This document shows, in pieces, positions 2,548-37,521 of a DNA stretch of 39,901 bases. Source of the stretch: a virus. The stretch's first letter is position 1; each line of letters opens with the position of its first letter. Both the position numbers and the translations under genes were made by a program. The notes beneath the pieces were generated by a model. That model did not search any database. It was not told the origin of the DNA and saw only the letters and a program-made list of their open reading frames with translations. Location of the stretch: IMG/VR virus record IMGVR_UViG_3300041955_000409, positions 1 through 39,901 of that record; one strand, 5' to 3'.

Positions 2548-2970
2548 TCACGGTTGGCCTTTCGCTAGTTTGTCCCTCAATGCGGCCAATCTGTCGGCCC
2601 AATAAAGAGTACCTGCATCCATGATAATCGGTAATTTTTTCCCAGCTATTTCGGCTCTCATCTCTGCAATCAGCGCGTCTATCCGCGCCAAGACATCCGG
2701 GCCTGGTCCCCATTTGGCTAATTCGGACGACAAATCTACTTGTTGGTGAAAACGTAACGCTTCTAAGGCATCTTGCAATCTTTGATGCTGTGGGTATTCG
2801 TGACAAACACATTTGCATCCCGGCTGCGGCACGTCCGGCGAGACGGCGGGTGCGGCCACATGTACCACTTCGTTGACTGCATCAAGGCCAGCACGGGTAA
2901 TAACTCCACAGCACGAATCACAAAGTTTCCACCAGATTTGGTCAAACGCCCCCTTGCGGCTTGGCTTCAC
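2548..2970 (-). CDS. Hypothetical protein with Cys clusters; last gene of leftward operon
   Basis: This 140-residue protein starts at GTG 2970, overlapping the previous TGA (GTGA). Its N-terminal part has CDSCCG near residue 17 and CKCVCHEY near residue 52, which look metal-binding. The C-terminal half is helical and charged (LARIDALIAEMRAEIAGKK). It is the distal gene of the leftward early operon and converges with the lysin gene, leaving 2 bp between them. No family was recognised. Confidence 0.62.
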   Translation of the reverse strand: MKPSRKGAFDQIWWKLCDSCCGVITRAGLDAVNEVVHVAAPAVSPDVPQPGCKCVCHEYPQHQRLQDALEALRFHQQVDLSSELAKWGPGPDVLARIDALIAEMRAEIAGKKLPIIMDAGTLYWADRLAALRDKLAKGQP

Positions 2971-3125
2971 GACTCGCCCCTTTCGCGCTTGGCGTCGGCT
3001 ATCTTATTTGCTGTTACGGTTATGGAAATATGCACGTGTACCACGAATTTCCTTTCGCATTCGCTGCATTCCCACTCACAAAGCATCTCGCCCTGCTGTA
3101 CAATTGATTCTGTAAGATTATTCAT
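2967..3125 (-). CDS. Small zinc-ribbon-like protein (start uncertain)
   Basis: The clear part is 52 residues from ATG 3125, which overlaps the nuclease stop (ATGAATAA). It has ECSEC near the centre followed by beta-strand-like residues. The same frame stays open upstream through CPYCGE, which would complete a two-knuckle zinc ribbon (CPYC...CSEC). No ordinary start codon lies just upstream of CPYC. A longer form beginning as far up as ATG 3410 would overlap the nuclease gene by up to 290 bp. It is coupled to the next gene by GTGA. Confidence 0.55.
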   Translation of the reverse strand: MNNLTESIVQQGEMLCEWECSECERKFVVHVHISITVTANKIADAKRERGES

Positions 3126-3498
3126 CTCGCCACAGTAAGGACATCCGCTCTTTCCAGCGTCGAAGGAACTCTCGCGCGTCCCCGTGTAAAATCTGTCGCG
3201 TGCTGAACCTAAACACTGGATAGCCAAGCAGTTGCGCTTCGTTGTATTTGACCATATCTTTTTCCATCCCGGCGCCTCGGCTGTGTCGGCCCTGCACATA
3301 TACGCCGCCCTCGATCTCAATGAGGCAGGACATCCCACCATCAAACCATACTTTGTAGTCGCTTCTCCACTTGCGCGTCTGGTAAAACCGGAACTCTGGC
3401 ACCCACTCAAGACCTAATTCGTCTAGGTGATGCTCGAGTAGGATTTGACTCCCGGTTCTCTTGCGCACGCCGGTTTTGTTTGTGCCTGTCTTGTTCAT
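3118..3498 (-). CDS. PD-(D/E)XK-like nuclease (Vsr/DUF559-like)
   Basis: The protein is 126 residues from ATG 3498. This start is chosen because it overlaps the stop of the upstream micropeptide (ATGA); the frame is open further up to 3600. It has the pattern of small phage restriction-fold nucleases: RKWRSDYKVWFDGG, then CLIEIEGGVYVQGRHSRG (D...E-x-E), then MEKDMVKYNEAQLLGYPVFRFS. These enzymes cut DNA during repair, recombination or packaging. The exact substrate cannot be read from the sequence. The 3' end overlaps a zinc-ribbon frame. Confidence 0.75.
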   Translation of the reverse strand: MNKTGTNKTGVRKRTGSQILLEHHLDELGLEWVPEFRFYQTRKWRSDYKVWFDGGMSCLIEIEGGVYVQGRHSRGAGMEKDMVKYNEAQLLGYPVFRFSTRQILHGDAREFLRRWKERMSLLWRDE

Positions 3499-3578
3499 GG
3501 CCGCACCGGACTCGAGATGGCGTACAGAATGCCCGTCAGCGCACAGGCGCACGCCAGCAGGATCAGTAGGTATCTCAC
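3495..3578 (-). CDS. Single-span membrane micropeptide (27 aa)
   Basis: A 27-codon gene starts at GTG 3578, which overlaps the TGA of the zinc-finger gene before it. An AGGAGG site lies 7-8 bases upstream. Its own TGA overlaps the nuclease ATG. The product is one hydrophobic helix (RYLLILLACACALTGILYA) with a short basic tail. The double stop/start coupling and strong ribosome site support translation. The function is unknown. Confidence 0.65.
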   Translation of the reverse strand: MRYLLILLACACALTGILYAISSPVRP

Positions 3579-3811
3579 CGTTGACCTCCTGCCTTCTCAT
3601 TCATAAATGAAATGGAGTTTGTCACAATTTTTTGAACGCATTTTCGGCACAAATCATCTCCCGTATTACCGTTATATTCCCTATAAACTCGAAAGTAGAC
3701 ATGCCATCCATCTTCACGACCAGGATTCCGGCCATAAACCACATCGTGAAACTGATTTCCTATCAGTAGGATTTCGTCACCACATTCATCACAATAGTGC
3801 GATGTGCTCAT
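3575..3811 (-). CDS. Small zinc-binding protein (CxxC...CxxC)
   Basis: This 78-residue protein starts at ATG 3811, overlapping the previous TGA. A GGAGG-like site (AGGAGGAGCC) precedes it. CDECGDEI near the N terminus and CRKCVQKI near residue 57 form a likely four-Cys zinc knuckle. Between them lies an aromatic beta-like stretch (DGWHVYFRVYREYNG). It is one of many small Cys-pair proteins in this operon. No defined function. Confidence 0.7.
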   Translation of the reverse strand: MSTSHYCDECGDEILLIGNQFHDVVYGRNPGREDGWHVYFRVYREYNGNTGDDLCRKCVQKIVTNSISFMNEKAGGQR

Positions 3812-4038
3812 GGCTCCTCCTTACACTCCCTCCCGTGCCGCTCCTTGCTGCGATACTGATCCCCACACTTCTCGCACGTGAACACCTTGAACCCTCCCAG
3901 GTTGCGCGTGTCGCTCGGGCCCATACCGGCCTGCGTCTCACGCGCTACGTCGCTCTCCTGGTTGATGCGTTTCAGCATGGCCGCGCGGCGCCGCGAGCGT
4001 TCGGCTGGATCGTCGGGAGTAAGTCTAAATTCGCTCAT
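3808..4038 (-). CDS. Small basic protein with C-terminal zinc finger
   Basis: The 76-residue product starts at ATG 4038; an in-frame GTG lies two codons upstream. The N-terminal half is charged and helical (AERSRRRAAMLKRINQES). The C terminus carries CEKCGDQYRSKERHGREC, a C2HC-type zinc finger. It overlaps the next gene by ATGA. It may bind nucleic acid; that is inferred from composition only. Confidence 0.65.
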   Translation of the reverse strand: MSEFRLTPDDPAERSRRRAAMLKRINQESDVARETQAGMGPSDTRNLGGFKVFTCEKCGDQYRSKERHGRECKEEP

Positions 4039-4046
4039 GTGCACTA

Positions 4047-4229
4047 TTATCCAGCATTTGTTTTTCTCATTTCCCTTCTAGCACTCTTCAGTGATTCAGC
4101 GATGCATTTGCATAAAGTCTTGATAAAATCATCGGTAAAATCTTCTATCCTACATTGTTTCACGTTTATCGCCACATCCGTTAAACCAGTCACGGAATCA
4201 AATTCCACTTTCAATATTTCATGCGTCAT
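4047..4229 (-). CDS. Hypothetical small protein
   Basis: The 60-residue protein starts at ATG 4229, which overlaps the end of the upstream gene by 11 bp. It has a beta-like N terminus (HEILKVEFDSVTGLTDVAINV) and a helical, basic C terminus with two Cys residues. No motif was recognised. A longer in-frame form from 4286 is possible but would overlap the upstream gene more deeply. Confidence 0.5.
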   Translation of the reverse strand: MTHEILKVEFDSVTGLTDVAINVKQCRIEDFTDDFIKTLCKCIAESLKSARREMRKTNAG

Positions 4230-4404
4230 GCGACACCCCGAGTTTTCTCCCTGAATTATCCTTACGCCTTGGCGGGCACGGATCAATCAAAAAAAGCGCA
4301 AACTTGAAAGCGGCTAACCAGTCCGTAAAATCCTGATAGGAGCGTCCCAAACTTGCTCTCCAATGGCCGCCAATCCTTCTGACTTTAGCCTTTGCGCGTC
4401 TCAT
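4219..4404 (-). CDS. Hypothetical small basic protein
   Basis: The 61-residue product starts at ATG 4404 behind an AGAAGG site. The N terminus is very basic (RRAKAKVRRIGGHWR), followed by an aromatic stretch (FTDWLAAFKFALFLIDPCPP). It overlaps the next gene by 11 bp. No family was recognised. Confidence 0.5.
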   Translation of the reverse strand: MRRAKAKVRRIGGHWRASLGRSYQDFTDWLAAFKFALFLIDPCPPRRKDNSGRKLGVSHDA

Positions 4405-4415
4405 TGTGGCCTTCT

Positions 4416-4622
4416 TTATGGTCTATCCAGTAAGAACGTATTCACCAAGGCAATTCCAATTGCAGTACCAATAAATACGCCACACAAAAACCCCAGCGGA
4501 TCAGTGTTGTAAATGGAACCGTTACTAGTCCGAAATAACCAAGACCCGATGGCACCAGCCAGTAACAAAATTATAACGTTCACTCTCTTTTCAGCGTTGT
4601 CCACTAGATTCTCCCGTGGCAT
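4416..4622 (-). CDS. Two-span membrane protein
   Basis: The product has 68 residues and two hydrophobic segments: VNVIILLLAGAIGSWLF (about residues 14-30) and PLGFLCGVFIGTAIGIALVNTFLL (about 42-65). A short polar loop joins them. The ribosome site is weak. It lies between soluble small proteins of the leftward operon. It may act at the host membrane, for example in exclusion. No family evidence. Confidence 0.55.
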   Translation of the reverse strand: MPRENLVDNAEKRVNVIILLLAGAIGSWLFRTSNGSIYNTDPLGFLCGVFIGTAIGIALVNTFLLDRP

Positions 4623-4631
4623 TTGCGCGTT

Positions 4632-4862
4632 TCATTGTGGAACGTATCCACTTTCTTGCGCGCATCTTCTGCACCAAACTCGTATTTCCTCGCTGGTATG
4701 TAACGGTCCGTCAATAGAACAATGCACGTCTTCCTCTCCAGCGAAGGCGATATCGGCACCGTTAAGAACATGCTCGCAGATGAACATCGCAGGCTGTAAT
4801 CCATGCGTCGAGCAATCAATCTTCTTGTTAAGTTTCACTTCTCGGTCCGTGATTACTTTCAT
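4632..4862 (-). CDS. Small Cys/His-rich protein
   Basis: The 76-residue protein starts at ATG 4862. CSTHGLQPAMFICEHVL (Cys, His, Cys and His in the order C-x2-H-x8-C-x-H) and a later WCRRCAQE pair look like a zinc site. The CxxHG.QPA.FICEH pattern recurs in small environmental bacterial proteins of unknown role, as far as I recall. A competing frame at 4604-4819 lacks such a pattern and was rejected. It sits just downstream of the HTH initiator-like gene. Confidence 0.62.
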   Translation of the reverse strand: MKVITDREVKLNKKIDCSTHGLQPAMFICEHVLNGADIAFAGEEDVHCSIDGPLHTSEEIRVWCRRCAQESGYVPQ

Positions 4863-4866
4863 GCGT

Positions 4867-5460
4867 TCACATCGCCCTCTTCTGCGCTAGATCTCGGATC
4901 ATCGCGCCGAGCTCGTGAGGTTTGAAGTTTTCTGTTTTTGACTTTGATTGTGAACCAGAAGGAACCGCGCTCCGGGTTTGAGCGCGTTCTTTCTTTGAAG
5001 GACGGTTAAAGGACGGTTCGGGTGACACTAGTGACACCCCCCCGGTGACAGTATCTGACACCCCCTGGGCGACAGTTTGACACCCCACGGGTGACAATTT
5101 GACACCCGGTATCGAATAGAGATTACATCCGTGCGGTCCTTTCCCTTTGTCAATGGTCAACTCGGAATGAAATCCGTGCTGGTATCGTGTCAGACGGCGA
5201 ATGGTTCTCTGTACAGTGCGCTCACTAATTCGTGATTCCTTGGATAGAGTTTTTATCGAAGGCCACGCACCACTACCGTCAGACTTGGCGTGGTTCGCAA
5301 TCATAAGCAGTACTACGAAGGAGTTACCTTTGTGGCGGGATTTCTCGATTACCCACGAAATTGCTTGAACTGACAAGTTCCTCTCCTGCAAGAGGTGAGG
5401 CTGAGTGTGCAGGCACCCAGCCCCGAGTTCAACGAGTTCATGCGATACAGGCGCACTCAT
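4867..5460 (-). CDS. HTH_36-type DNA-binding protein, replication-initiator-like
   Basis: The product has 197 residues. The segment SWVIEKSRHKGNSFVVLLMIANHAK...WPSIKTLSKESRISERTVQRTIRRL (residues about 35-92) is a winged-helix HTH of the kind at the N terminus of phage O-type initiators. A Ser/Lys-rich linker and a charged C-terminal helix (ELGAMIRDLAQKRAM) follow. Four iteron-like repeats lie within the gene at 5021-5110 and encode the GVKLSPVG...GVSLVS stretch, as in lambda O where the origin is inside the gene. The start ATG overlaps the upstream stop. No helicase-loader gene was recognised beside it. Confidence 0.75.
   Translation of the reverse strand: MSAPVSHELVELGAGCLHTQPHLLQERNLSVQAISWVIEKSRHKGNSFVVLLMIANHAKSDGSGAWPSIKTLSKESRISERTVQRTIRRLTRYQHGFHSELTIDKGKGPHGCNLYSIPGVKLSPVGCQTVAQGVSDTVTGGVSLVSPEPSFNRPSKKERAQTRSAVPSGSQSKSKTENFKPHELGAMIRDLAQKRAM
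5021..5110. repeat. Iteron-like direct repeats, candidate replication origin
   Basis: Four imperfect copies of a 22-24 bp unit of the form GGTGACAnnnnTGACACCC begin near 5021, 5044, 5068 and 5090. TGACA (once CGACA) recurs eight times at roughly half-unit spacing. They lie in the middle of the initiator-like gene. In lambdoid phages the O protein binds iterons inside its own gene, so this is a plausible origin. A duplicated GGACGGTT flanks it at about 5000-5018. Confidence 0.6.
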
Positions 5461-5636
5461 CTTAGCGCACCGTCACCGCGCATGTCAAGAGCCTCGCGCA
5501 AGATTCTTTTTACTGCCTGCCTGTTGCGGATGTGCTGCGCCTTGCTGATGATATCTGGCTCGTAGTTGCCGTGGTTTATGTAGTAAAGCAGCTTCTTGTG
5601 CGCAAGATTCACTTGGCGCCTGGGTGACCGGCTCAT
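5457..5636 (-). CDS. Hypothetical small basic protein
   Basis: The 59-residue product starts at ATG 5636, which overlaps the previous TGA (ATGA). It is basic and helical: SRSPRRQVNLAHKKLLYYI, then AQHIRNRQAVKRILREALDM. Its stop overlaps the ATG of the HTH initiator-like gene (5457-5460), so the two are likely co-translated. It may bind DNA or serve as an accessory to the initiator; that is inferred from position and charge. Confidence 0.62.
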   Translation of the reverse strand: MSRSPRRQVNLAHKKLLYYINHGNYEPDIISKAQHIRNRQAVKRILREALDMRGDGALR

Positions 5637-5833
5637 GCGTTTCCCTTGAAAATGACCCGGACAAGGTATTCGACAATCGCCCACATGGACAGAGCAAGCA
5701 GCAGAACGAACAGCAGTACAGTGGGAACGACTCTCTCAAACTTGTCGATCATGACGGATGTGATGCAGGCAAAAACAGCGACGATCATGATTATCGGAAG
5801 CCATATCAGCAGATCATGAAATGGTGCGCTCAT
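5633..5833 (-). CDS. Two-span small membrane protein
   Basis: The 66-residue protein starts at ATG 5833 behind GAGGGGA. Two hydrophobic segments (about residues 8-28, LLIWLPIIMIVAVFACITSVM, and 37-57, PTVLLFVLLLALSMWAIVEYL) are joined by a short charged loop. The stop overlaps the next start by ATGA. The topology resembles other small early phage membrane proteins. The function is unknown. Confidence 0.65.
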   Translation of the reverse strand: MSAPFHDLLIWLPIIMIVAVFACITSVMIDKFERVVPTVLLFVLLLALSMWAIVEYLVRVIFKGNA

Positions 5834-5842
5834 GCGTTCCCC

Positions 5843-6106
5843 TCAGTCAGTTAGGACTTCATGCTCACACACTATATCGCCACATCCCGGGTCGCGATCT
5901 TGTGGATGAATCTTATAGAACCTCTCGGCAGCGCACCCGACTATGCGCCACGGTAACTTACAAACTTCGGAGATCTCTGGAAATAGACGGACTCGCACAA
6001 CTTTCTTTAGTAGTAGCTCAATTTGTTCGATAGGCTCCCCATCTACATTAAGCTCTGCTAATGAATAGTGAAATAAAATTAGCCGTGCTGGTTGCCATTC
6101 GCTCAT
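5843..6106 (-). CDS. Hypothetical protein
   Basis: The 87-residue product starts at ATG 6106, overlapping the HNH gene stop (ATGA). It alternates hydrophobic and charged residues in a compact soluble pattern (ARLILFHYSLAELNVDG, IELLLKKVVRVRLFPE). Four Cys residues in the C-terminal half (VCKLP, VGCAA, GCGD, VCEHE) could bind metal. No family was recognised. Confidence 0.58.
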   Translation of the reverse strand: MSEWQPARLILFHYSLAELNVDGEPIEQIELLLKKVVRVRLFPEISEVCKLPWRIVGCAAERFYKIHPQDRDPGCGDIVCEHEVLTD

Positions 6107-6453
6107 GCGTCCACCTTCTTGCTCCAGCGCAAGCTTACGTGTTCTTTGGTGTGGCAGTCGGATACGAATCTTCCACATCGAACTTCGCCATTATGGAGAC
6201 AGTCACAACGGCCAACTGTTCCACGTTGGATGTGATGCCATTCGCCCCGATATCCATCTGCACCTTCCTCTGGCGCTCGTCTGCCGCAAGCTCTACAGCG
6301 CGACATATCTCGTTCAAAAATTTCGTGACGCCGTACTCCTTTATCCACGGCCCCATAGAGATAGTCGTGGCCATCGACTGATACGAAACTCCTGGGGTCT
6401 TGGAAAGCTCTATTTTTAGTTGCTCCGTTGTCACGTTTCGCTCCCCTTGGCAT
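6103..6453 (-). CDS. HNH endonuclease
   Basis: The 116-residue protein starts at ATG 6453, 5 bases after the upstream stop. It has RHEIFERDMSRCRACGRR (zinc Cys pair), then GEWHHIQRGTVGRCDCLHNG (HH plus metal-site Cys) and a final DCHTKEH. This is the His-rich treble-clef nuclease pattern. Freestanding phage HNH enzymes nick or cut DNA, often for packaging or homing. A second complete frame of 99 codons (6135-6434, same strand) is nested inside it behind a strong ribosome site; see findings. Confidence 0.8.
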   Translation of the reverse strand: MPRGAKRDNGATKNRAFQDPRSFVSVDGHDYLYGAVDKGVRRHEIFERDMSRCRACGRRAPEEGADGYRGEWHHIQRGTVGRCDCLHNGEVRCGRFVSDCHTKEHVSLRWSKKVDA

Positions 6454-6460
6454 CGGCGTA

Positions 6461-6679
6461 CTATTTCGGTTCCAGCGTTTTGTGGTCAAGGAATCGGGAA
6501 ACCCCCTGAGACACACAGCTAGAACCACACGCATCCTTGATCGTGGAGTTTTCTGGTTGTCCGACAGACGGCAAAATAATGAGTGTTCCATGCGGAGTGA
6601 CTTTCAAACGATACCAGTGATTGACCTCTCCCTTGGCTTTACCGCAGAAGTCACAAGTGTCCTGGTAGGCTCGACTCAT
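6461..6679 (-). CDS. Small zinc-finger-like protein
   Basis: The 72-residue product starts at ATG 6679, overlapping the stop of the upstream micropeptide. It has CDFCGKAKGEVNHWYRLKV, where a Cys pair and His follow the usual knuckle spacing, and later DACGSSCVSQGVSRFLD, a second Cys pair. The beta-like middle (GTLIILPSVG) fits a small zinc-stabilised domain. The role is unknown. Confidence 0.68.
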   Translation of the reverse strand: MSRAYQDTCDFCGKAKGEVNHWYRLKVTPHGTLIILPSVGQPENSTIKDACGSSCVSQGVSRFLDHKTLEPK

Positions 6680-6765
6680 CGGAACCAACTGTAAAGCAGT
6701 ATCCCAAGCAGCGACGCGAGCCACAGCCGCATGGCCCAGGTGTAGAAGCGCGTGGTGCTGTTCAT
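6676..6765 (-). CDS. Single-span membrane micropeptide (29 aa)
   Basis: The ATG at 6765 overlaps the TGA of the regulator gene (ATGA), and its own TGA overlaps the next ATG. The 29 codons give a basic/polar N terminus followed by one hydrophobic helix (WLASLLGILLYSWF) ending in Arg. Exact coupling on both sides supports it as a gene. The function is unknown. Confidence 0.6.
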   Translation of the reverse strand: MNSTTRFYTWAMRLWLASLLGILLYSWFR

Positions 6766-6917
6766 CGCTTCGCTAACTCCCTAGCAAGGGTAGCGCAGAA
6801 AACCTCATCCGCTACTTCGTACATCTTTTCGCTGCGCATAGCTGCAATTTGTTTAAGTGCTTTAGCTGCCTCTATCGTGATCTTGACGGTTGTAAGCTTC
6901 GGAGTGTTCTTTTGCAT
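6762..6917 (-). CDS. Ribbon-helix-helix-like regulator, first gene of leftward operon
   Basis: The 51-residue product starts at ATG 6917. A short strand (LTTVKITIEAAKAL) is followed by two helices (KQIAAMRSEKMYEVADEVFCATLAREL), the size and order of a MetJ/Arc-type ribbon-helix-helix protein, which binds DNA as a dimer. It is the promoter-proximal gene of the leftward operon and lies next to a 38-bp dyad, so autoregulation of both divergent promoters is likely. There is no ribosome site. If the proposed promoter is right, the transcript starts at or within a base or two of the ATG and is leaderless. Confidence 0.65.
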   Translation of the reverse strand: MQKNTPKLTTVKITIEAAKALKQIAAMRSEKMYEVADEVFCATLARELAKR

Positions 6918-6924
6918 GGCTGTA

Positions 6925-6970
6925 AAAGTACAACTTTGGTATTGACAAGTCAAGTGGAAAGTTGTAAAAG
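6925..6970. promoter_or_regulatory. Divergent promoters under a 38-bp dyad operator
   Basis: At 6929-6966 a palindrome has 9-bp outer arms (TACAACTTT / AAAGTTGTA), 5-bp inner arms (TTGAC / GTCAA) and 4-bp unpaired spacers. The inner arms supply both -35 boxes. Rightward: TTGACA 6942-6947, 17 bp, TAAAAG 6965-6970. Leftward: TTGACT 6953-6948, 17 bp, TACTTT 6930-6925. The -10 boxes are weak, consistent with activated or repressed control. The outer arms cover both spacer/-10 borders. Confidence 0.65.
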
Positions 6971-6999
6971 ATACTATGCTCACCGAGGGAGGCAAAACC

Positions 7000-7158
7000 A
7001 TGGAAAAGCCAGCACAGATACCCCCGATCCTGACGCCAGAAGGAATCGAAGAGTTTCTCGCGCGGCGGATCGAGGCAGACAAGCGGGCGTTGCGCTTTGA
7101 CGCACGGCGGCTCGAAGCGATGGAGCGCGAAGCGGGCTGCAACGAGGTGGGAGAATGA
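7000..7158 (+). CDS. Small charged protein, first gene of rightward operon
   Basis: The 52-residue protein starts at ATG 7000 behind GAGGGAGG. An in-frame ATG at 6976 is too close to the proposed transcript start. It has a Pro-rich N terminus and a strongly charged helix (IEEFLARRIEADKRALRFDARRLEAMEREAG). It overlaps the next gene by ATGA. It may be an accessory or regulatory factor for the recombination genes. No family was recognised. Confidence 0.62.
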   Translation: MEKPAQIPPILTPEGIEEFLARRIEADKRALRFDARRLEAMEREAGCNEVGE

Positions 7159-7328
7159 GCCACACTTGCAGGAACTTCGATGAATGCCGGATGTGCGGTG
7201 CTCATTTCTGCGTGGATTGCGCGCCGGAAGGCACCGAGTTTTGCTCCGGGGATTGCGCTCACGACTGGTACGAAAGATTGCGCGAGGGGCCATTTGATAC
7301 GCTCGAAGAAAGGGACGGACTCGTATGA
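7155..7328 (+). CDS. Small Cys-rich zinc-binding protein (57 aa)
   Basis: A 57-codon gene is coupled by ATGA at both ends (7155-7158 and 7325-7328). It is Cys-dense: CRNFDECRMCGAHFCVDC, then EFCSGDCAHDWYERL. The order C-x2-C, C-x2-C, C-x3-C suggests a cross-brace or treble-clef zinc module. It lies just upstream of the Bet-type recombination region. The function is unknown. Confidence 0.65.
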   Translation: MSHTCRNFDECRMCGAHFCVDCAPEGTEFCSGDCAHDWYERLREGPFDTLEERDGLV

Positions 7329-7963
7329 GCGCCACAGACACAACTGCACTGATTCACGTCACAGATGGGCAGATTGTCGCAGGGCCAGAACTGGAGTTTG
7401 CAATAAAAGATTTGACCGCGCGCGCCGAACTCGTCAAGGCCGTATCGGATCAAGAGAGCTATGCAGAGGCACTCGAAATCTGCGCGGACGGTGAAGCGGA
7501 TGTCAAGATGATCCGCGCGGCTGCGGAACCGGAACGGTTGCGGCTACAACGAATACTCGATGAGCTGCGCGACCAGCGCAACGTGGTCATCAAGCAGATC
7601 GAAGACATTACTTCTCCGCTCAACCGCATGGCCCGCGACTGGAATATCAACCGGGAGCGCGCCGAGGCCAAGGCGGAAGAGGATCGGGTGAATCGCGGCA
7701 AGAAGCCTGAGCAGCGAGTCCATGTGCAGCCAAACATTCCAACCGTTCCAGGCAAGCGCATTGTGCTCCACTATCGGGCTGAAGTGCTCAACCCATCTGC
7801 ATTACTCAACGCCTATGTCGGAGCGCGCGGCCCTCGGAAGGAATTTCTGCGCCAGTTCGTAACGGTGGATCAGCAAGCCATTCAAAAGGTTTTCCGCGAA
7901 GAAATCAAAGACCCAAAGGAAGCGGCCAAAGTGATACCGGGCGTCAAATTCACAATTGAATAG
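7325..7963 (+). CDS. Recombination-module coiled-coil protein
   Basis: The 212-residue product has an N-terminal mixed region and a long charged coiled coil (about residues 40-135, with many Glu/Arg such as ERLRLQRILDELRDQRNVVIKQIEDI). A C-terminal small domain ends in AAKVIPGVKFTIE. Phage proteins with this shape and an IPGV-like C terminus often sit directly upstream of single-strand annealing protein genes, as here. The biochemical role is not established. It overlaps its upstream neighbour by ATGA and leaves 8 bp before the Bet-like gene. Confidence 0.6.
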   Translation: MSATDTTALIHVTDGQIVAGPELEFAIKDLTARAELVKAVSDQESYAEALEICADGEADVKMIRAAAEPERLRLQRILDELRDQRNVVIKQIEDITSPLNRMARDWNINRERAEAKAEEDRVNRGKKPEQRVHVQPNIPTVPGKRIVLHYRAEVLNPSALLNAYVGARGPRKEFLRQFVTVDQQAIQKVFREEIKDPKEAAKVIPGVKFTIE

Positions 7964-7971
7964 GGAACCGA

Positions 7972-9015
7972 ATGCCGCACGCAAAGCGAAAAGCTGTCCG
8001 TAAACCGATCCCGTCTCGCCGCGCTCCTACCCAAGCGATCGTTGTGCGCGCACCGGCTGAAAAGCCATGGCTGTTGCAGCCCGAAGAGATAACACTCATC
8101 AAGAACGTGGTCTGCAAAGGCGCGTCGGACGTGGAATTGCAGTACTGCCTAACTGTGGCGCGGCGGTACAAGCTGGACCCATTCCAAGGGCAAATTTGGT
8201 TTGTACCGCGCTGGGACTCGGAAGCGCAGCGCACGGACGGCCGGACCGGAACGAAGGTATTTGTTCCCGTTGTGGGCATCAACGGGATGCTGCACATTGC
8301 TGCACGAGATCACCGGGACTTTGGCAGTTATTCGCAACCGGAATACGGACCCATGATCACCGTCGAATATCAGAAGCTCGGACAGGGGCCAAAGCTAAAA
8401 CTCCAAGTTCCCGAATGGGCGCGCGTCAGCACGAAGAAAAAGGGCTGCACCGATGCCACGGTTGGCGAGGTGTGGTGGGAAGAAATCTACAAGAACATCG
8501 ACTTTGCACCAACGGTGCGGCAGATGCCACGCCTCATGCTCGCCAAGTGCGCCCGGGCCCAAGCCACACGCACAGCCTATCCGAGCACAGGCGGACTGCT
8601 GATACCCGAAGAGACGCACGGGCCCGAGTTCGAGAACATAACGCCAGGCGGTCGGCTCATCACGCCAGCCGAACCAGTGAACCCGGCGCTTGAAAAGTAT
8701 CTGGAGCGCGAGAAAGAGCAAATCTCCAAACTCACGCCCGCGCAGCGCGAAGTGGTTGAACGCAAGATGAGCGAGGCCGAAGAAGCCAAGAAGACGCTGG
8801 GCTATCGCTATTACCAGGAGAGCGAAACTTACCGCATTGGCGGTCCCGCTCAACTCATACACGACAACATGGAATTGCTGAAAGAGCTGTGGAGCCCAGT
8901 GGCCAAGAGCTTCGTAGCGAATGCGTCCCAACTCGGGAAACTGATCTCGCAATTCGAGCAGCGCGGCGTGCGATTCAAGAACATGGACGCGCGGGAGGAT
9001 CCGAAAGTTGAATAA
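7972..9015 (+). CDS. bet: Single-strand DNA annealing protein, Bet/RecT family
   Basis: The protein has 347 residues. After a basic N terminus it has the Bet/RecT core: EEITLIKNVVCKGASDVELQYCL, RRYKLDPFQGQIWFV, VVGINGMLHIAARD, and RQMPRLMLAKCARAQATRTAYP (about residues 40-205). A charged C-terminal helical region follows, typical of the partner-binding part. Such proteins anneal complementary single strands in phage recombination. An expected partner 5'-3' exonuclease is not evident nearby. The nearest nucleases are the HNH and PD-(D/E)XK-like genes, so the pairing is unusual or uses a host enzyme. Confidence 0.85.
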   Translation: MPHAKRKAVRKPIPSRRAPTQAIVVRAPAEKPWLLQPEEITLIKNVVCKGASDVELQYCLTVARRYKLDPFQGQIWFVPRWDSEAQRTDGRTGTKVFVPVVGINGMLHIAARDHRDFGSYSQPEYGPMITVEYQKLGQGPKLKLQVPEWARVSTKKKGCTDATVGEVWWEEIYKNIDFAPTVRQMPRLMLAKCARAQATRTAYPSTGGLLIPEETHGPEFENITPGGRLITPAEPVNPALEKYLEREKEQISKLTPAQREVVERKMSEAEEAKKTLGYRYYQESETYRIGGPAQLIHDNMELLKELWSPVAKSFVANASQLGKLISQFEQRGVRFKNMDAREDPKVE

Positions 9016-11277: not shown

Positions 11278-11441
11278 AGCTTCTCTGCTGCTGTGAAATC
11301 CAGATTGACGGCAAATCCTACACGCTCAAACGCTACGCACCAAAGCCCCCGAATGGCGCTTTGATGCATATCAAGCGAAAGCACCAAGTCGCCCAACGCT
11401 ATATGCGGCAGATGAACGCCCGCATTGCCCGCCTCGCGTGA
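11274..11441 (+). CDS. Hypothetical small basic protein (55 aa)
   Basis: The start GTG 11274 overlaps the previous TGA, and its stop overlaps the small terminase GTG, so it is coupled on both sides. The N terminus has three consecutive Cys (LLCCCEI); the rest is basic and helical (HIKRKHQVAQRYMRQMNARI). It may be a DNA-binding partner of the terminase. That is inference from position. Confidence 0.55.
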   Translation: MKLLCCCEIQIDGKSYTLKRYAPKPPNGALMHIKRKHQVAQRYMRQMNARIARLA

Positions 11442-11980
11442 AACTGCGCCCCAAGCACAAACGCTTCGTTGCTGAATACCTGGTAGACCTCAACGCCACA
11501 AAAGCCGCTATTCGTGCAGGATACAGCGAAAAGTGGGCCTGGAAGAATGCGGCGCGCTTGACTGCAAATGAAGGAATTGCTCGCGCGATTCATGAAGGCC
11601 AAGCCAAACGCCTCGATAAGTTGGACATATCGGCTGAGCGCGTCCTGCGCGAAATCGCCCTGCTCGCTTTCTCTAACATGGACGATTACACAAAAGTGGA
11701 GAACGGGCGCAGAGTCCTCGAAACGAAAAACCTCACGCGTGATCAGATGGCTGCGGTGCAAGAGCTGACTGAAGATGCGACAGGGGGAACAGGCGACGGT
11801 GAACGCCGGCTAATTCTGCGCACCCGCTTCAAGCTCTCCGATAAGGGCATCAACCTCGAGCGTCTCGGCCGTCACTTGAAACTCTTCACGGACAAGATGG
11901 AACTGTCGGGAGACTCTCTGCTCATCGAGCGTCTTGCGGCAGGCAGGAAAAGACTCCAAGAAGGAGGAAAGGGGGGATGA
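11438..11980 (+). CDS. terS: Terminase small subunit
   Basis: The 180-residue protein opens with the Terminase_2-type HTH: KHKRFVAEYLVDLNATKAAI, then RAGYSEKWAWKNAARL (residues about 5-45). A helical oligomerisation region and a charged C terminus follow. It binds packaging sites and loads the large subunit. It starts at GTG 11438, overlapping the previous stop. The large subunit gene is 4.2 kb downstream rather than adjacent, because three secreted-protein genes intervene. Confidence 0.85.
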   Translation: MKLRPKHKRFVAEYLVDLNATKAAIRAGYSEKWAWKNAARLTANEGIARAIHEGQAKRLDKLDISAERVLREIALLAFSNMDDYTKVENGRRVLETKNLTRDQMAAVQELTEDATGGTGDGERRLILRTRFKLSDKGINLERLGRHLKLFTDKMELSGDSLLIERLAAGRKRLQEGGKGG

Positions 11981-20964: not shown

Positions 20965-21133
20965 TCCGCTGCTTGCGGTTACCGCAGAGCAGGCTATGCA
21001 GAAAATAAAAGAACTGTGCGCGAAGGCTTTTCGTGATGGCTACACCGAAGGATTCAAGAAGGGCTTTGAGCAAGGTGCAATGGCAGATGCAGGCAAGTCA
21101 CCGAAGGCGAATTTGATTATCAGACCCTCTTAA
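20930..21133 (+). CDS. Small helical protein upstream of portal
   Basis: The 67-residue form starts at TTG 20930; ATG 20996 (MQKIKELCAKAF) is an alternative with a weak AGCAGG site. The helix has a repeated Gly/Phe spacing (FRDGYTEGFKKGFEQGA), a pattern of small phage proteins next to portals. The stop overlaps the portal ATG (TAATG). Confidence 0.55.
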   Translation: MEKEKKATGHADPLLAVTAEQAMQKIKELCAKAFRDGYTEGFKKGFEQGAMADAGKSPKANLIIRPS

Positions 21134-23262
21134 TGCGTTCTCCGAATCGCCGCACAACTCAAATCAACAAGTATCAGGTCAGCGATCCCCTCGTTAAGCA
21201 TATCCTCGATCGCTTCGACTACCAGAAGGAATGCTGGCGCGAGATTCGCGAAGCGGCCAAAGAGGATATGCGCTACGTGGCGGGCGATCCGTGGGACCCG
21301 AAAGAGAAGCGCGCGCGGCAAGCAGTCAATCGGCCTTGCCTGACGCTCGATGAACTCGGCCAATATCTCAACGCGCTCATCAACGACGTGCGGCAGAACA
21401 AGCGGGCCGTGCAAGTGACGCCGAAGGGCGCAGGCGCGAGCGATAAGACAGCGGAATTTCGAGGCAACCTGATCCGGGCCATCGAGTACGCATCGAACGC
21501 GCAGACCGCCTACATCACCGCAGCCGAGAATGCTTTCTCGCGCAGCTACGGATACTGGCAGATCGGCACGCAGTATGTCGCCGATAAGAGCTTCGATCAG
21601 GAAATCACCATCAAGCGTATACAGAACCCGGACACCATTTACCTTGACTACGACGCCAAAGAAGCCGATTTCTCTGACGCCAAGGAACTGTACCAAGTCG
21701 AGATGATGCGGATTAAAGACTTCAAGGATGAATTCCCAGGAGCGAAGATCACCGACTTCACAACCGAGATGCAGGAGTCGGCACCAGCGTGGATCAAAGC
21801 CGAGGAAGTACAGATTTGCCACTATTGGAAGGTGGAACTCACGCCGCGAAAGCTCTATTTGGTCAAAACGCCGAATGGCCCCATCTCGATGTGGGCTGAT
21901 GAGATTACCGAGGGATTCAACAAGTCGCTCATCATCAAAGAACGCGAAAGCAAGAAGCGCGAGGTATTCAAATACATTACCAACGGCGTTGAAATTCTCG
22001 AGAAAGAGCGGTGGGCCGGAAAGTACATTCCGATCATCCCCGTGCTTGGTAAAGAGATGTGGGTCGATGACGGCAACGGATCGAAGCGCATGCTGATGTC
22101 GCTAATCCGCCTAGCGCGCGATCCCTATATGCTCTACTGCTACTACCGCACCACGGAAGCGGAACTGGTTTCGATGACTCCGAAGACGCCTTACATGGGC
22201 GTTGAGGGACAATTCGACGGACACGAATCGGAATGGCAGCAGGTCAACACGAATCCCACTGCGTACCTGCAATACAAAGCCAAGACTGTGGACACGGGCG
22301 ACTCTGTTCTACCGGCTCCGACTCGCCCGCCTTACCTGCCGCAGATCGAACCGCTGGAGATGGGCGCCGAATCCGCACGGCGAGCAATCCAAGCAGCCAT
22401 CGGGATCAATCCACTGCCGACAGCAGCCCAGCGAATGAACGAAAAGTCAGGCGTGGCGATCGAGCGGATCAAATCGCAGGCGGATCAGGGCAGCTTCCAC
22501 TTCATCGACAACTACGATAGGGCGCTCCAGTATTCGGGGCGCGTGATTGATGACCTGATCGACAAGATTTATGACACCTCGCGAGAAGTGCCGATCCGCA
22601 AGCAGAATGAGGAGCACGCACTTATCACCATCAATGACCCACAGCAAGCCGAAGAAGGAGCATTTACCGGCCAAGGTGACCATGGCGTCACCATCTCGGT
22701 AGGACCGTCCTTTGACAGCGAGCGCGAAGAGGCATCGAATTTCGTGGACACGCTGATTGACGCTCTGCCGAATCTGCCGATTGATCCCACAGCTAAGCCG
22801 AAGCTTCTGGCCATGGCGATTAAGCTAAAAGATATCGGACCGCTCGGCCGCGAGATGTCCGACATCATTTCACCACCAATGACTGAGCAACAGATGCAGG
22901 CACAAATGCAGCAGCTTCAGGCGCAAGTGGCCAATTACCAGCAACTCCTTGCCGGTCTGCAGGCCGAGAACCAGAAGCTCTACGCGGAGAAGCAGGGCAA
23001 GGTGGTTGACAACGAATACGCGCTCCAGATGCAGCGCCTAAAGAACGATATTACTGTGCTTGTGGCTGAGATCAACACCAAGGCTCAGGACCAGGCACAG
23101 CGTCTTGAAATGTTCATGGAGTTCTGGAAAGAACAGCACGGCTCGGCGCACGAACTCGCCATGGCGCAGACGAACGCGCAGAACACTCAGCAACTCGCCG
23201 CGCAGCAACAGGCCGCACAACAAGCTCAACAGCAGCAACCAACTCAAACAGGAGGAGACTGA
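21133..23262 (+). CDS. Portal protein, P22-like
   Basis: The protein has 709 residues, close to P22 gp1 (725). The opening YQKECWREIREAAKEDMRYV, then GDPWD, is the P22-type portal start. RPCLTLDELGQYLNALINDV and the later NEKSGVAIERIKSQADQGSF fit the clip/stem region. The C-terminal 120 residues form a Gln-rich coiled coil (EQQMQAQMQQLQAQVANYQQ) like the barrel of P22. It forms the dodecameric ring through which terL pumps DNA. Its stop overlaps the scaffold start. Confidence 0.88.
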   Translation: MRSPNRRTTQINKYQVSDPLVKHILDRFDYQKECWREIREAAKEDMRYVAGDPWDPKEKRARQAVNRPCLTLDELGQYLNALINDVRQNKRAVQVTPKGAGASDKTAEFRGNLIRAIEYASNAQTAYITAAENAFSRSYGYWQIGTQYVADKSFDQEITIKRIQNPDTIYLDYDAKEADFSDAKELYQVEMMRIKDFKDEFPGAKITDFTTEMQESAPAWIKAEEVQICHYWKVELTPRKLYLVKTPNGPISMWADEITEGFNKSLIIKERESKKREVFKYITNGVEILEKERWAGKYIPIIPVLGKEMWVDDGNGSKRMLMSLIRLARDPYMLYCYYRTTEAELVSMTPKTPYMGVEGQFDGHESEWQQVNTNPTAYLQYKAKTVDTGDSVLPAPTRPPYLPQIEPLEMGAESARRAIQAAIGINPLPTAAQRMNEKSGVAIERIKSQADQGSFHFIDNYDRALQYSGRVIDDLIDKIYDTSREVPIRKQNEEHALITINDPQQAEEGAFTGQGDHGVTISVGPSFDSEREEASNFVDTLIDALPNLPIDPTAKPKLLAMAIKLKDIGPLGREMSDIISPPMTEQQMQAQMQQLQAQVANYQQLLAGLQAENQKLYAEKQGKVVDNEYALQMQRLKNDITVLVAEINTKAQDQAQRLEMFMEFWKEQHGSAHELAMAQTNAQNTQQLAAQQQAAQQAQQQQPTQTGGD

Positions 23263-24244: not shown

Positions 24245-25633
24245 GTGAGAAAACTCAGGGAATCACTGGGCTGGATCAGCCTAGCGGTGAACTGTGTTGT
24301 GATGCTGGTCGTTCACCACTTCATTCACAGCCATGCCGCGCTTGTACTGATCGCAGCAAACCAGTTCGTATTCGCCGATTGGGTCACGATGGAATCCTTA
24401 CGGATTCTGCTCAACCAATTGGAAGTCGCGCAGTTTATGAACACGGACTACAACAAGGAATTCACCCGCGAATTCGCAGTGGGTGAAACAGTCCGCGTCA
24501 AAAACCCGCAACGCTTCATCATCCGCGACGGCTTGGGCTATCAGGAACAGGCCATTGCGCGCAACTTCACGACCGTGACCGTCGATCAAATCTTCGGCAT
24601 CGACTTCCAATGGGATTCGGTGGAAGAAGCTTTGAAGATGGAGCGCGGTTCAGACGCTTGGCGGCGAGAGTACATCGAGCCGGCCATGGCGCAGATTGCG
24701 AATGAAATCGACACTCGCGCGGCTTTATTCGCAACCAACAACATCAACAACATCGTCGGCGTGCTTGGTCAGGACCCCAACAACATGACCGTGTTCCAGC
24801 AAGCCCGCGAGCGATTGATTGAAAAGGCATGCCCGCCTGAGGAAAAGGGGATGATTATCCCGCCTTCGGTGAGCACTGCCCTCGTACCGGCACTCGCCAG
24901 CTTCTTCAATCCCACTTCCGAGATTTCCGAACAGTACAAAGAAGGCAGCATGGGGAAGCTGTCGGGCTTTGACTGGTACGAATCAGTCAATCTTTACAAA
25001 CTGACCGCGGGAACTGCCGGCCAAGGCGGAACCTTTACGGTCAACGGCGCGAATCAATCGGGATCATCTCTCGCAGTGAATGCGGGAGCTGGCGAAACGC
25101 TCAACGCTGGCGATGTCATCTCCATTGCAAACGTGAACTTCGTCAATCCGATGACTCGGCGCATTACCGGCCCTGCGTCACCGCTCGGCACCATGCAATT
25201 CGTGGTAACCGCTCCGATCACGTTTATCGGTAGCGGCAACGCGGCGGATGTGGTACAGATTAACCCGCCGATCGTCGGACCTGGCGGCGTGCTGCCAGCG
25301 AGCGCGTTCAGCCAATACCAGAACGTCGATTCGCTTCCGGCCGCTTCAGCGCAGATCACGCTCTATCCCGGCACCACCGCACCGTGGGGTAAGACAGGGG
25401 CCCAGGCTCTTGCCATACACCGCGATGCGATCGCTATGGTTGGCGTGAAACTCTCGATGCCGAAGGCGGTTGAGTTGGCATCGCAGACCCGCGACCGCGA
25501 GACGGGCATCAGCGTGCGCTTCGTGCGTATGTTCGATCCCATCCAATCACGCATGATCAACCGTTTCGACGTGCTGCTCGGCTTCGGAACGCTCTACCCG
25601 GACAATTGCGCTGTCCGCGTGCTGTGCGGCTAG
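24245..25633 (+). CDS. Major coat protein, P22-coat-like, with N-terminal hydrophobic extension
   Basis: The product has 462 residues. The typical coat start FVFADWVTMESLRILLNQLE appears only at about residue 43, followed by VAQFMNTDYNKEFTREFAVG, PPEEKGMIIPPSVSTALVPA, the GSMGKLSGFDWYES segment and a C terminus of FDVLLGFGTLYPDNCAVRVL. An inserted beta-domain lies at about 255-370. The first 40 residues, from GTG 24245, hold a membrane-like helix (WISLAVNCVVMLVVHHFIH), which is not usual for capsids. No better start with a ribosome site precedes the conserved part. Confidence 0.82.
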   Translation: MRKLRESLGWISLAVNCVVMLVVHHFIHSHAALVLIAANQFVFADWVTMESLRILLNQLEVAQFMNTDYNKEFTREFAVGETVRVKNPQRFIIRDGLGYQEQAIARNFTTVTVDQIFGIDFQWDSVEEALKMERGSDAWRREYIEPAMAQIANEIDTRAALFATNNINNIVGVLGQDPNNMTVFQQARERLIEKACPPEEKGMIIPPSVSTALVPALASFFNPTSEISEQYKEGSMGKLSGFDWYESVNLYKLTAGTAGQGGTFTVNGANQSGSSLAVNAGAGETLNAGDVISIANVNFVNPMTRRITGPASPLGTMQFVVTAPITFIGSGNAADVVQINPPIVGPGGVLPASAFSQYQNVDSLPAASAQITLYPGTTAPWGKTGAQALAIHRDAIAMVGVKLSMPKAVELASQTRDRETGISVRFVRMFDPIQSRMINRFDVLLGFGTLYPDNCAVRVLCG

Positions 25634-37063: not shown

Positions 37064-37375
37064 TTAGCGGCAGGTGGTGTACACCGTGCCGAAGATATTC
37101 TGCGACGTGCAATTTAGTGGTGCGTTCTGAACTGGAGCCTGCGTTGGCTGTGGTACCGGCAGAATGTATGGCTGCGGATGATACATGCCATTGACCGCAT
37201 TCAGGGCCGCAATCTTCTGCTCGAAACTGGGATGCACCTTTACCTTGACCGTGCGGGTACCGTTCTTTGCAACGCAAACTTTTGTTTCGGTGTTGCCTTG
37301 CCAAGAAGAACTGCACTGCTTGGCGTAGCAGGATGTTGACAGCAGAACAGCGGCAATTACGATTGCAGTTTTCAT
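37064..37375 (-). CDS. Small secreted protein
   Basis: The 103-residue product starts at ATG 37375 behind AGGAGAGGA and overlaps the previous TAA (TAATG). A signal peptide (KTAIVIAAVLLSTSCYA) precedes a mature part with four Cys (QCSSS, KVCV, LNCT, TTCR), likely two disulfides, and a Pro/Gln-rich segment. It would act in the envelope or outside. No family was recognised. Confidence 0.65.
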   Translation of the reverse strand: MKTAIVIAAVLLSTSCYAKQCSSSWQGNTETKVCVAKNGTRTVKVKVHPSFEQKIAALNAVNGMYHPQPYILPVPQPTQAPVQNAPLNCTSQNIFGTVYTTCR

Positions 37376-37521
37376 TAGCGTTTTCCTCTCCTTGTAGGGT
37401 GGCGATGCATAGCGAGAATATGATCGGCCAGTCTGTCGATAACCACCGTCATGCAGTAGCCCCAGGTGAGCTTCCGGCAGAACGGGCACATCTTGCAGCG
37501 AGTCTTGGCAACGTAGCTCAT
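37375..37521 (-). CDS. Small Cys-rich basic protein (48 aa)
   Basis: The start ATG 37521 overlaps the previous stop and its TAA overlaps the next ATG. It has RCKMCPFCRKLTWGYC, a Cys cluster likely to bind zinc, then a helix and a basic tail (HRHPTRRGKR). Coupling on both sides supports it. Function unknown. Confidence 0.6.
   Translation of the reverse strand: MSYVAKTRCKMCPFCRKLTWGYCMTVVIDRLADHILAMHRHPTRRGKR

Follow-up and report, generated by a model that had tools for sequence, protein, structure and literature searches.

A symmetric 38-bp dyad over divergent promoter-like elements in a podovirus, a candidate operator of a 51-residue ribbon-helix-helix-like protein

Related control regions and layout of the window

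P22 is a podovirus whose immI region contains a very small protein of the ribbon-helix-helix (RHH) type beside divergent promoters. Arc and Mnt are members of the RHH family and form tetramers (PMC3325190). For lambda cI, a leaderless repressor mRNA has been documented (PMC4965119), and pLS20 Rco provides a case of overlapping divergent promoters with the regulator encoded on one side, the tetrameric protein looping to a second operator (PMC4207663).

The locus described here lies in a 39,901-base virus record with 55 % G+C, the whole of which is referred to as the window. Phage control regions of this layout are well known, and the locus is ordinary in kind; the points added by the present analysis are a predicted leaderless asymmetry, the presence of an RHH-like gene at the corresponding junction of a related genome (G419) and signs of an exchange of regulator and operator. 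Like P22, the window belongs to a podovirus, its portal, coat and terminase set is P22-like, and a very small protein, here an RHH-like candidate, is encoded beside divergent promoter-like elements. In contrast to immI, however, there is no ant gene or visible C2/CI immunity region, the putative operator consists of one dyad of 38 bp that extends over both promoter-like elements, and no sequence similarity links Arc to the 51-aa protein; the arc, mnt and ant genes with their operator, i.e. the features that define immI, were not found in the window. As at lambda OR, a (candidate) repressor gene and an early lytic operon diverge from a common control region and, as for cI, the putative repressor message is predicted to be leaderless. 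Unlike OR (PR/PRM, CI/Cro), with its three operators, the window has one dyad, lacks an HTH repressor pair and yielded no integrase. The overlapping divergent elements with a candidate regulator gene on one side also resemble the Rco arrangement, but Rco uses a second operator and the window holds a single copy of the dyad.

The virus is a soil-type podovirus, with a P22-like gene set of small terminase, portal and coat assigned by PHROGs and, in addition, a large terminase (Table 1). The majority of genes run rightward. A leftward block (2548-6917) comprises the O-like replication initiator, an HNH-like gene, small Cys-rich genes and the 51-aa gene, and this replication block parts from the rightward block, which leads from recombination to the late genes, at an 82-bp divergent gap (6918-6999). 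It is inside this gap that the dyad is located, with the replication, HNH and 51-aa genes to its left and the 52-aa, 212-aa and RecT genes to its right. The window has no DNA similarity to known phages; since it also lacks a terminal repeat, it may be incomplete.

Table 1. Coordinates of the features discussed
Feature	Position	Strand	Remarks
O-like replication initiator	4867-5460	-	HTH_36; leftward operon
51-aa RHH-like protein	6762-6917	-	candidate repressor; first leftward gene; no Shine-Dalgarno
Leftward -10-like box TACTTT	6925-6930	-	weak, 3/6; 17-bp spacer; predicted start 6918/6917
Outer left arm TACAACTTT	6929-6937		9/9 complementary to 6958-6966; its TA overlaps the leftward -10
Inner palindrome TTGAC-AA-GTCAA	6942-6953		TTGAC 6942-6946, GTCAA 6949-6953; both -35-like hexamers back to back
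Rightward -35-like box TTGACA	6942-6947	+	6/6
Leftward -35-like box TTGACT	6948-6953	-	5/6
Outer right arm AAAGTTGTA	6958-6966		its TA overlaps the rightward -10
Rightward -10-like box TAAAAG	6965-6970	+	weak, no final T; 17-bp spacer; predicted start ~6977
Shine-Dalgarno GAGGGAGG	6985-6992	+	strong; 7 nt before ATG at 7000; direct reading
52-aa protein	7000-7158	+	first rightward gene; no assigned function
212-aa protein and RecT-family annealing protein	7325-9015	+	rightward early genes
Terminase small subunit	11438-11980		PHROGs
Large terminase	16220-17710		matches annotated phage terminases
Portal	21133-23262		PHROGs
Coat	24245-25633		PHROGs

Two further observations concern other parts of the window. 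Within the O-like initiator gene, three 21-bp direct repeats (TGACACCCCC...; 5032-5098, with 24- and 22-bp spacing) resemble the origin iterons that lambda carries within O; no repeated copies of them are present in L100, the closest initiator relative. An isolated leftward ORF (37064-37489) with a signal-peptide-like start is found within the rightward late region and is possibly an extra gene that is transcribed separately.

The dyad and its promoter-like elements

The original prediction had described a symmetric 38-bp operator shared by back-to-back promoters, and this symmetry was borne out, i.e. the dyad spans 6929-6966 (TACAACTTT-N4-TTGAC-AA-GTCAA-N4-AAAGTTGTA), its two arms (6929-6946 and 6949-6966) being complementary at 14 of 18 positions around a 2-nt centre, with N4 spacers reading GGTA on the left and GTGG on the right. 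Both 9-bp outer arms are present at the -10 edges as described, fully complementary and each overlapping a -10-like box by its TA, and the two -35 boxes indeed abut as the halves of the inner palindrome; the span first given (6925-6970) also includes both -10-like boxes. The promoter geometry is exactly mirror symmetric, and dyad and promoters have one common centre. The inner palindrome has one exact match in the window, the exact outer arm occurs nowhere else in it, and no second copy of the dyad was found there.

Because both -10 boxes are weak and a strict consensus scan lists neither promoter, it is plausible, at most, that these elements act as promoters. With the start positions placed by standard spacing (~6977 and 6918), the leftward start is predicted to coincide with the ATG of the 51-codon gene (6917) or to precede it by a single base. 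Since no Shine-Dalgarno sequence precedes this ATG, the leftward message is predicted to be leaderless, whereas the first rightward gene is preceded by a strong one, so that unequal outputs would be expected despite the symmetric operator. Equal control in both directions, as had been proposed, is therefore unsupported.

The term 'switch', which had also been applied to the locus, fared no better. A tyrosine integrase (PF00589) was absent from the window and from the three relatives G419, G459 and G460 in a search confined to this family, in which the positive controls worked. Since no tyrosine integrase was found, a lysogeny decision at the dyad is not supported by this window, which may be incomplete. 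The proposed lack of a recognisable CI/Cro pair did hold: no HTH repressor family was detected among the scanned ORFs of the window, in which HTH domains occur only in the initiator.

The 51-residue protein and the junction in related phages

The case for an RHH-like regulator starts from the sequence of the 51-aa protein, which shows a strand-like start (TTVKIT) followed by two helix-like stretches. Profile searches returned no RHH model up to E 10 in Pfam or NCBIfam, no significant Pfam match and no match to the Arc model; the best family match was phrog_6580, which has no assigned function (E 0.004, not significant). AlphaFold2, given one or two sequences, produced a single long, poorly constrained helix (pTM 0.31-0.38), and its models had no meaningful PDB match and did not confirm an RHH fold. 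Homologues were found neither in viral_contigs, phages or plasmids nor in 19 terminase relatives or 40 coat-protein relatives; tblastn against 50,697 phage records gave no match at E 1, and 396 Acidobacteriota genomes gave noise-level matches only (all with E of at least 0.04).

Terminase and coat searches returned many relatives, and G419 (IMGVR_UViG_3300036780_000032; 41,437 bp; terminal repeat of 127 bp) was the only complete record that clearly had the early block in common. Its RecT is 58-59 % identical to that of the window, its homologue of the 212-aa protein 38 % by tblastn and 45 % over the pairwise alignment, and G419 was the only record recovered when viral sequences were scanned with the 212-aa protein. 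G419 likewise encodes a 51-aa protein, rightward of its divergent junction, which matches RHH_1 with an E-value of 0.0029, below the gathering score, and, likewise sub-threshold, FitA-like RHH, RHH_5, Arc and ParD-like models. One ungapped register aligns the two 51-aa proteins better than shuffles (p = 0.004), and BLASTP gives a marginal E-value of 0.011 over 14 residues. An RHH-like gene thus occupies the same junction in both genomes, on opposite sides; the HNH-like gene is part of the leftward operon in the window and follows the RHH-like gene rightward in G419. The proposal that the adjacent RHH-like gene encodes the regulator is strengthened by the protein at the G419 junction, but not by the window protein itself, which has no RHH profile match.

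The entire intergenic sequence of the relatives differs from that of the window. Neither the dyad nor the promoters occur in the G419 intergenic sequence, and the dyad, looked for in related phages as the original prediction suggested, was absent from G419, from L221 and from every collection searched, its exact pattern being absent from viral_contigs. Since relatives lack it, no evolutionary evidence ties the dyad to the 51-aa protein, and conservation thus speaks neither for nor against binding. In L221, with a RecT of 48 %, the divergent junction carries the gene of an HTH-looking 68-aa protein that has no Pfam match. TTGCAA-17-TACATT ends 6 bp before its ATG, and this message is again predicted to be leaderless. 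These comparisons show signs that regulator and operator may have been exchanged among related phages. L100 (initiator 67 %) was rejected for comparison of the early region, which is unrelated in that record.

Other repeats were seen in the relatives. The divergent gap of G419 (L177:10500-10650) contains TAGTA/TACTA-type repeats (GTAGTAGAG, GTAGTACTA, TTACTAG and GGTAGTGGTAG) beside the RHH-like gene, possibly an operator of different sequence. A family of ~125-136 aa with two CxxC motifs is encoded in L189, L191, L192, L194, L197, L200, L203, L205 and L206, in several cases divergently to a ~110-aa gene. Perfect palindromes, usually in two copies, lie 20-55 bp upstream of these genes and track the protein subtype, i.e. 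CGTGCTAGCACG in L194, L203 and L206, TTGGTACCAA in L191 and L197, GTTGTACAAC in L189 and L200, and others again in L192 and L205. This family looks like a group of regulators with diversified operators.

Proposed role and competing explanations

With a dyad that overlaps two promoter-like elements and a regulator-like gene next to it, the locus falls, as far as its sequence indicates, into the class of autoregulatory operators over divergent promoters. We favour, at about even odds, the reading that the dyad is the autoregulatory operator of the 51-aa protein and throttles both early gene sets. The leftward operon would make the RHH-like protein, which would accumulate and bind across the dyad in the form of at least two dimers, presumably as a repressor of both promoters, occluding them where their -35 boxes abut at the dyad centre. 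After early expression this would damp both the protein's own operon, which extends as far as the replication initiator, and, from RecT onwards, the rightward one. By direct reading, the dyad contains four CAA/TTG triads 11, 9 and 11 bp apart, a spacing that, speculatively, would suit adjacent dimers. As two RNA polymerases cannot occupy abutting -35 boxes together, the promoters would compete even without the 51-aa protein.

Alternatively, the dyad may serve another protein, either one of the small early 52-aa, 57-aa and 87-aa products (Cys-rich or unassigned) or a host regulator, a reading that we regard as a real but lesser possibility. In its favour, the RHH fold of the 51-aa protein is unproven, several small early proteins without assigned function flank the dyad, and sister phages have palindromic sites beside a different gene, that of the two-CxxC family. 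That family, however, has no homologue in the window, and a small regulator-like gene beside the junction recurs in both G419 and L221. The host regulator was rejected, the full dyad being absent, at up to three mismatches, from 396 genomes of Acidobacteriota, the phylum guessed as host.

It is unlikely, in our estimate, that the symmetry is largely incidental, with outer arms that arose by chance or by inverted promoter duplication and regulation exerted only by promoter competition. Back-to-back -35 boxes yield the inner palindrome automatically, the relatives have no such dyad, and whole-window shuffling leads to an expectation of ~1.0 dyad of this quality per window, although locally the dyad exceeds chance: at least 14 of 18 paired positions (gap 0-4) were reached in 24 of 20,000 trials when the surrounding 133 bp were dinucleotide-shuffled. 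Inverted repeats of 9 bp within 40 bp occur at six distinct places in the window, i.e. the dyad and five others, and the dyad is therefore notable by its location. Against an incidental origin, taking the inner palindrome as given, the outer 9-bp paired run has p = 5e-6, and the 7-bp run left after discounting the TA bases of the -10 boxes p = 3.6e-4 (both from post hoc composition shuffles), and the outer arms lie mostly in the spacers, where the consensus requires nothing. That the dyad acts as a hairpin of RNA or extruded DNA is highly improbable: the strand can fold (-6.9 kcal/mol as DNA, z -2.1), but this is a modest energy that is matched in 8 of 200 shuffles, each side has a 4-bp internal mismatch, there is no T-run, and the predicted transcripts begin outside the dyad and head away from it, so that it would not be transcribed.

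Returning to the autoregulatory operator, a stronger version of it would have one operator and one 51-aa RHH protein, made from a leaderless message, govern both directions alone in a podovirus without integrase or CI/Cro pair, setting replication on the left against recombination and late functions on the right. This we consider doubtful. If true, it would be a minimal and easily rebuilt early hub, with two operons kept in balance by a single tiny protein and a single dyad, and an example from phages of uncultured hosts without any assigned regulator. The dyad locus would also be a point at which related phages swap regulators and operators.
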